A DNA stretch of 40,086 nt, from the NCBI GenBank assembly GCA_913056175.1, contig CAJXLM010000022.1:1-40086 (forward strand), given 5' to 3'. The notes under the pieces are model-generated. The model was given only the letters and a program-made list of their open reading frames with translations, made no database searches and was not told the origin of the DNA. Origin of the DNA: an uncultured Opitutia bacterium. Lineage in GTDB: Bacteria; Verrucomicrobiota; Verrucomicrobiia; Opitutales; Puniceicoccaceae. The position numbers and the translations under genes are program-made. This document shows, piece after piece, positions 1 to 40,077 of the stretch (position 1 is its first letter; each line of letters begins with the position of its first letter).

Positions 1-154
1 CCAGCACCACCACCCCGCAGAACTCCGCCACCTTCCCCATCATCGCCAACAGCACACGGCAGTCCTCCTCCCCCAACACCGGCAACCGGTCCACCAGCTC
101 ACTCCGCACGTAGTACACCCCACTCCCCTCCACCTTGTAACGCGCCATCCGCAT
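1..154 (-). CDS. REP-associated tyrosine transposase (Y1_Tnp/IS200-like), N-terminal part, cut by window edge
   Basis: An open frame on the minus strand starts at ATG 154 (a second ATG is at 148) and runs off the left edge of the window after about 51 codons. The visible protein begins MRMARYKVEGSGVYYVRS and reaches a CGVVVL stretch. That is the usual start of REP-associated transposases of the Y1 family, where a YHV-type strand is followed by a helix and then by the catalytic HFH block, which here would lie outside the window. These enzymes are single-stranded DNA transposases linked to dispersed palindromic REP elements. The REP-like hairpin 50-110 bp upstream of the start and related motifs further along support this reading. 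The HUH and Tyr residues are not visible, so the call rests on the N-terminus and the context. Confidence 0.68.
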   Translation of the reverse strand, partial: MRMARYKVEGSGVYYVRSELVDRLPVLGEEDCRVLLAMMGKVAEFCGVVVL

Positions 155-166
155 CGTAACCCCACC

Positions 167-182
167 AGAAAACATGTTTTCT
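167..182. promoter_or_regulatory. 16-bp perfect palindrome upstream of the transposase start
   Basis: The sequence AGAAAACATGTTTTCT is a perfect palindrome and is AT-rich in a very GC-rich setting. It lies 13 bases upstream of the transposase ATG. It could be an operator or a small cruciform; no regulator can be named from the sequence. Confidence 0.4.
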
Positions 183-200
183 CTCTTTGCAAGCTCAATG

Positions 201-267
201 TGGGGGACAGACGTGCAGCAACCCCCCCCCTGTAGGGGAAAGCTTGAGGGCAACGGGGGGGTTGCTG
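201..267 (+). repeat. REP-like element: GGGGGACAGAC guide followed by a hairpin
   Basis: The core TGGGGGACAGAC starts at 201 and is followed a few bases later by a hairpin. Its arms are 13 bp and perfectly complementary (CAGCAACCCCCCC at 216-228 and GGGGGGGTTGCTG at 255-267), with a loop of about 26 bases. A short conserved 5' guide followed by an imperfect palindrome is the architecture of REP elements that sit beside their cognate transposase. The same GGGACAGAC core recurs inside the 152-bp tandem repeats and at the right end of the window. Confidence 0.6.
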
Positions 268-270
268 GGG

Positions 271-1072: not shown

Positions 1073-1665
1073 CGGGCCGAGATCGCATGATCCCCCGATC
1101 CTCGCCGGCCCCGGTTGGGCCCTGTATGAGGGACAGACCGTCTGTAACCCACAGAGGCAAGAACTGCGGAAACCTTTCCCGGGGCGGCTCACCCAAAGGG
1201 TGAAAGGTTCCGGACAATGCTCCGGCGCGCGGAGAACGGGGGGTTCCCCGATCCTCGTCGGCCCCGGTTGGGTTACGTTTGGGGGACAGACTGCTGACTG
1301 CCCAACGATGGAGGAACACCCGCGACCCTTCCCGGGGCGGCTCACTCAAAGGGTGAAAGGTTCCGGACAATGCTCCGGCGCGCGGAGATCGGGAAGTTCC
1401 CGATCCTCGCCGGCCCCGGTTGGGTTACGTGTGAGGGACAGACCGCTGACTGCCCAACGATGGAGGAACACCCGCGAACCTTCCCGGGACGGTTCACCCA
1501 AAGGGTGATAGATTCCGGACCCTGCCCCAGCGCGCGGAGATCGAGGGGTTCCCGATCCTCGCCGGCCCCGGCTGGGCTCTGTGTGAGGGACAGACCGTCC
1601 GCAACCCAACGGCTTAAGAACACCCGGGAACCGTCCTTGAGATGGCTTACTCAAAGGGCGAGATG
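1073..1665. repeat. Tandem array of about four 152-153 bp repeats
   Basis: The block GATCCTCGCCGGCCCCGG recurs at 1097, 1250, 1402 and 1554, giving a period of 153, 152 and 152 bp. Each copy carries the core G(A/G)GGGACAGAC (starts near 1128, 1281, 1433 and 1585). In copies 2 and 3 that core lies in the loop of a GTTGGG/CCCAAC stem. Most copies also carry a perfect CACCC-AAA-GGGTG hairpin. The period is not a multiple of three and every frame breaks, so the array is not protein-coding. Copies differ by point changes, and the last copy is the most divergent. Confidence 0.85.
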
Positions 1666-40021: not shown

Positions 40022-40077
40022 CAGAGGGACAGACCGCCACAATGCCCCTTGCGGCGGGGAGACGACAAGGCGAGGGG
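40022..40077 (+). repeat. REP-like element at the right edge
   Basis: The core GAGGGACAGACCG (40024-40036) is identical to the core in the left-end tandem repeats. It is followed by a hairpin with CCCCTTG (40045-40051) against CAAGG (40066-40070) plus GGGG (40074-40077) after a 3-base bulge. The order guide-then-hairpin matches the element beside the transposase at the left end. Confidence 0.55.

Follow-up and report, generated by a model that had tools for sequence, protein, structure and literature searches.

Our analysis of this window, a stretch of 40,086 nucleotides that makes up the whole of contig C22 in a 2.61-Mb genome of 84 contigs (completeness 96.49, contamination 0.07), reveals a family of TIRYT-derived genes that has lost its catalytic residues, has multiplied since that loss under constraint on the protein, and is associated with dispersed boxes and REP-like arrays. 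We consider it probable that these catalytically dead proteins are kept as DNA-binding proteins and that their genes spread in trans or by recombination. The preliminary description had seen here a transposase together with its dispersed target family. The family homology stands, as does a box that is dispersed and tied to the family. As worded, that claim fails, since HUH is gone from nearly every readable copy in the present genome and the catalytic Tyr from all of them.

The window's own copy consists of the first 51 codons of an A-type TIRYT/RAYT-derived gene (2-154, minus strand), recognized by a leader and N-terminus that are common to seven A-type 5' ends in the genome, the window copy among them. 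The frame, MRMARYKVEGSGVYYVRS..., stays open up to the contig end, which cuts off the rest, and it cannot be extended because contig C22 stops there. Profile searches confirm, through RAYT/TIRYT homology, that it is akin to REP-associated transposases, as had been proposed. Upstream of the start codon is a conserved 5' leader (155-201, minus strand) that includes CTTGCAA and is present in all seven A-type copies. It is followed by the box GGGGGACAGAC (202-212, plus strand), which reads GTCTGTCCCCC in gene sense and had been correctly located just upstream of the frame. Similarity among the A-type copies stops just past this box, and the flanking DNA beyond it is unrelated among the seven. The box-to-start distance in the window copy is the same as in intact relatives.

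Beside the box lies the 13-bp perfect-arm hairpin of the preliminary description (216-267, arms at 216-228 and 255-267). This hairpin is private to the window copy: it is absent from the other A-type contexts, and its fold is modestly better than that of shuffled sequences (z -1.99, with 11 of 200 shuffles as good). Over 33 box contexts, the DNA downstream of the box has a mean folding z of -0.35, compared to -0.04 for random places. We therefore reject the view of box and hairpin as one element for the window's box. An Rfam search of the window gave no match. The core does recur, either unchanged or as GAGGGACAGAC, where the preliminary description placed it, both in a tandem array with a 152-bp unit (1094-1658, plus strand), whose four boxes at 1128, 1281, 1433 and 1585 share one orientation, and near the far contig end, where a box reading GAGGGACAGAC (40024-40034, plus strand) has surroundings that resemble the start of contig C12. 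Directly after the box array comes a second tandem repeat that has no box (1820-1978, two copies of a 74-bp unit).

Searching the genome with a profile built from seven of its own full-length copies (the A3 profile) returned 68 matches. By hand count, these comprise 8 full-length copies, 35 5' ends and 23 3' ends at contig ends, and 2 other internal matches, namely one decayed remnant (C45:17740-17925) and one distinct, single Y1-like gene (C7:33631-34146) with NHSH and an intact YVDLNP. Because the 5' ends each have their own flanks, the family numbers at least 43 copies in 2.6 Mb, and breaks at its members account for 58 of the 168 contig ends. A search at the DNA level likewise showed that other contigs terminate in near-identical 5' ends, and the 51-aa window protein alone has 28 matches in the genome. 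The groups among the 5' ends are A, to which the window copy belongs, with 7 members, A' with 3, and B with 24 that differ in their flanks. Among the 3' ends there is a group of 7 for A and one of 3 for A'. The pairing of A-type 5' and 3' halves rests on these matching counts, 7 and 7 for A and 3 and 3 for A'. One A-type copy is adjoined by a 160-bp tandem array without a box (C17:364-966).

These copies differ from their relatives in the state of the catalytic residues. PMC6006769 identifies the Tyr in Y---NP as catalytic and assigns metal binding to the Asn. Of 372 genomes in this order, 92 have matches to the A3 profile, with E values down to 1.9e-59. We compared 74 relative loci, composed of all 37 from the genome_contigs collection, 29 fetched at the level of the order and 8 relatives found earlier; the 37 come nearly all from Verrucomicrobiota MAGs, including Opitutales, Puniceicoccaceae and Akkermansiaceae, with one labelled Desulfobacterales. 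In this set, which was not chosen by motif, HUH is kept in 73 of the 73 loci that cover its columns, and Tyr and Asn are kept in 73 of 74. The exception, L125, reads as frameshifted, because a second frame holds AAYIDLNPV.

The copies in the present genome show the reverse. HUH is absent in 12 of the 13 copies that show its columns, Tyr in 11 of the 11 that are readable there, and Asn in 10 of those 11, so that the motifs expected by the preliminary description are missing from the family. Where HUH would stand, the seven full-length copies without it have GIQ, EVQ, EVC, ELL or EIQ, and the five B fragments that reach these columns all have GIQ. The sole copy to keep HFH, on contig C6, also retains Asn and has Gln at the Tyr position. 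The HUH columns lie outside the 51 codons of the window copy, and its loss of Tyr we infer from the corresponding 3' ends. Since the assembly lacks the central part of near-identical copies, it may conceal an intact one. REP_Tyr_transpos (NCBIfam) matches 3 own proteins at E values of 3.4e-11 to 1e-4, all below its curated cut-off, and PF01797 has no match in the genome at E <= 0.001. When run against 4 own full-length proteins, PF01797 gave 14-16.8 bits for three (cut-off 23) and no match for one. A PDB sequence search with one intact relative returned nothing relevant.

The eight full-length own copies form one clade (100/96) in which C6 is sister to the other seven, in a tree for which the program flagged long branches, that of C6 in particular. 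As judged from these alignments and this tree, the family descends from intact HUH-Tyr proteins found in the same bacterial order. The B-type 5' ends diverge by 15% at synonymous sites and by 2% at non-synonymous sites, for a pN/pS of 0.11 over 276 pairs, each of at most 50 codons; pairs of full-length copies have a dN/dS of 0.26-0.62. The low ratio among the near-identical B copies indicates that the protein is under selection. Since the B copies that share the loss of HUH differ only slightly, the family grew after that loss and under constraint.

The box is far commoner in this genome than chance would predict, as had been anticipated. GGGGGACAGAC has 50 exact sites, compared to 0 for the reversed pattern, and GRGGGACAGAC with up to 1 mismatch has 179 sites compared to 45. 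In the window alone, at up to 2 mismatches, there is no enrichment (25 seen, 35.9 expected). GGGACAGAC is a dispersed element tied to the RAYT/TIRYT-related family, and many intact relatives have it too. Of 57 intact relatives, 23 carry the heptamer GGGACAG, on either strand, in the 120 nt before the gene, as opposed to 1, 0 and 0 in three control windows; it lies mostly 48-66 nt and typically about 55 nt before the start. Among 40 intact relatives, 18 have the box upstream and 1 has it downstream; the 57 and the 40 are those of the 74 relatives that pass the HUH and Tyr pattern and have enough flank. In 22 of 59 leaders of intact relatives, the sequence YTTG[AC][CA] occurs in the 60 nt preceding the start (shuffled mean 9.2, maximum 18); it may act as a -35 element or belong to the recognition site.

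The A copies combine a box at -48 to -58, in the opposite orientation, with a second box, oriented like the first, at +210 to +266, which is found within 1 mismatch of GRGGGACAGAC in 7 of 7 A-type 3' ends; random windows of equal size pass this test in 21 of 3000 cases. At up to 1 mismatch, a second box is missing from the three A' 3' ends. With a downstream box in 1 of 40 intact relatives, two-sided flanking is not ancestral on present evidence. The heptamer forms an inverted pair in C6 and C24, and the boxes are direct in the A-type copies and C40.

Boxes are also arranged in arrays, in the window and in C10, C42/C28, C54, C41, C14, C7, C9 and C12. Each array has a unit of its own, about 150-590 bp long, that holds one or two boxes. 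The array borders follow no fixed rule relative to the box. In C14, the DNA from stop codon to box matches the 237-nt unit of the adjoining array, in register, as if the gene had been placed directly after a box within an array. This is the one array in which the insertion register beside a box can be read.

The B-type genes have a different companion. They are followed 3' by arrays of a GGCAKGGRA tag (also written GGCAKGGGA) with a small hairpin flush against it. A perfect hairpin directly follows 46 of 131 tags, compared to a mean of 1.8 and a maximum of 6 in shuffles, and the stems come in several variants, among them GCGCC/GGCGC, ACGCC/GGCGT and GCACC/GGTGC. With up to 1 mismatch, the tag GGCAKGGGAGYGGGC has 117 sites genome-wide, compared to 7 for its reverse. 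The arrays are built like REPs, with an unusual tag. The idea of a guide plus hairpin therefore applies to the sister subfamily B and not to the element next to the window frame.

Comparison with described systems provides a context for these results. TIRYT genes are flanked by TIRs that share GGGGWSAS, and all RAYTs and TIRYTs aligned in the same study retain HUH and the catalytic Tyr (PMC3733652, 2013); most TIRYTs map to subclass 2.1 (PMC6006769, 2018). The present family resembles TIRYTs and TIRtrons in belonging to the same protein superfamily, in a box, GGGGACAG, that fits the flanking motif GGGGWSAS (PMC3733652, PMC6006769), and in the C6 gene, which lies between inverted box copies; TIR families, too, can be moderately repeated and clustered. 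It departs from TIRYTs in lacking HUH and Tyr, in its copy number of at least 43 in one genome, and in A-type boxes that are direct, not inverted.

The sub-cut-off REP_Tyr_transpos match and the tag-plus-hairpin arrays with several stem variants after the B-type genes recall RAYT/TnpAREP proteins with their REPs, REPtrons and BIMEs. However, the B tag is GGCAKGGGA, not GT[AG]G, the catalytic residues are lost, and the many copies here contrast with the low copy number there, where any one tnpAREP is usually present as a single copy and evidence of mobility is lacking (PMC8266576). Nor does the window's box fit a REP of the GTAG type: it lacks a conserved hairpin and agrees with the TIR motif instead. 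Compared by description, TnpAY1 of subclass 2.3 (PMC6006769) has similarly long proteins (median 325 aa), is multi-copy and has no REP found nearby, but it averages 3.9 copies per genome and keeps NHYH and YVDLNP. TnpA of IS200/IS605 (subclass 1.1) likewise occurs as near-identical dispersed copies, whereas the present family has neither HUH nor Y---Q, and no element ends with subterminal hairpins were identified. By its residues, the family does not qualify as an active TIRYT or RAYT, although it descends from such proteins and adjoins sites like theirs. In the accessible parts of the RAYT/TIRYT literature, including PMC6006769, PMC3733652 and PMC8266576, we met no inactive or expanded family of this kind.

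Taken together, these observations support a model in which the ancestor's single-strand-DNA cleavage chemistry was lost and the family then multiplied. The proteins would retain their fold and, without cutting, attach to either the GGGGACAGAC box or the arrays of GGCAKGGGA plus hairpin. Another enzyme, acting in trans on box-bounded units, may have spread the copies. Candidates would be an unassembled intact copy or the Tyr-bearing Y1-like gene at C7:33631-34146. Alternatively, copies may have spread by recombination between box and REP arrays. Bound protein could serve in copy control, in nucleoid organization or in shielding of the boxes. RAYT/TIRYT proteins are presented in the accessible literature as low-copy HUH enzymes, and the present family is read as catalytically dead and has many copies. 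Loss of the chemistry followed by multiplication is a natural separation-of-function case, one that allows a test of whether the DNA-binding half by itself benefits the host or suffices for spread. In addition, the GGGGWSAS motif known from the literature acquires a fixed place relative to the gene, about 55 nt upstream of the start codon, throughout a bacterial order.

A second reading, to which we give clearly less credence, is that the gene spreads as a transposase without transposase chemistry. A constrained, non-cutting protein would recognize the boxes that bound its gene, and would either recruit another enzyme or possess an undescribed active site.

Somewhat less likely again is a spread without any transposition, through homologous recombination and gene conversion among the box or REP arrays, in which case the proteins would have a host function. 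The boxes and REP-like arrays are repeated genome-wide and adjoin the genes, and the C14 gene in register with its array fits this explanation. However, copy flanks are otherwise unrelated: upstream identity among B copies is 0.38, and the A copies share no DNA past the stop codon except for one pair and the box.

That the proteins themselves move DNA through a different active site seems doubtful. Near-identical, dispersed and constrained copies do resemble self-acting mobile genes, the A copies are recent (pS 0.03-0.09 among the 5 compared) while B is under strong constraint, and boxes stand on both sides of the A copies. Seven residues, Y6, R17, V80, G95, P231, H267 and W271 (C24 numbering), are invariant in the seven HUH-less copies and not in relatives, which for this comparison had been picked by HUH and Tyr patterns; Y6, R17, H267 and W271 are examples of candidates. 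Yet seven sequences of one clade are weak evidence for new active residues, mobilization in trans accounts for the same facts, and the RAYT/TIRYT literature, in its accessible parts, offers no precedent.

We regard as improbable an ordinary active RAYT/TIRYT that nicks box DNA via HUH and Tyr and so spreads a REP/TIR element. Besides the family homology and the dispersed box, its best case is C6, which keeps HFH and Asn and whose gene lies between inverted 16-nt boxes, GGGGGACAGACATCGC (C6:62527 and 63731), in a TIR-like layout. Against it stand the losses of HUH and Tyr counted above, and C6 itself has Gln in place of Tyr. A large palindrome around the C6 gene was considered as well, since two box pairs are symmetric there, yet self-BLAST of the 19-kb region revealed no inverted duplication.

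It is very improbable that the copies are decaying relics, left by a once-active family after its expansion and by now neutral. The genome does contain at least one decayed remnant (C45:17740-17925), and two full-length pairs have dN/dS near 0.6. However, all eight full-length frames are open without internal stops, and the B copies speak for constraint and for growth after the loss. An assembly or binning artefact can be dismissed in practice: the genome is in 84 contigs with breaks at these genes, but each copy has different, unique flanks, eight are whole inside contigs, and completeness and contamination are as given above.

Two further box loci add to this picture. An array at C41:1-3697 holds two box types, one CGGGGACAGACATCGC-like and the other GGGGGACAGACCGCCATAAA. 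Another genome of the order (G016) has 11 exact GGGGGACAGAC sites, compared to 2 reversed, four of them within about 2 kb of its contig C20.
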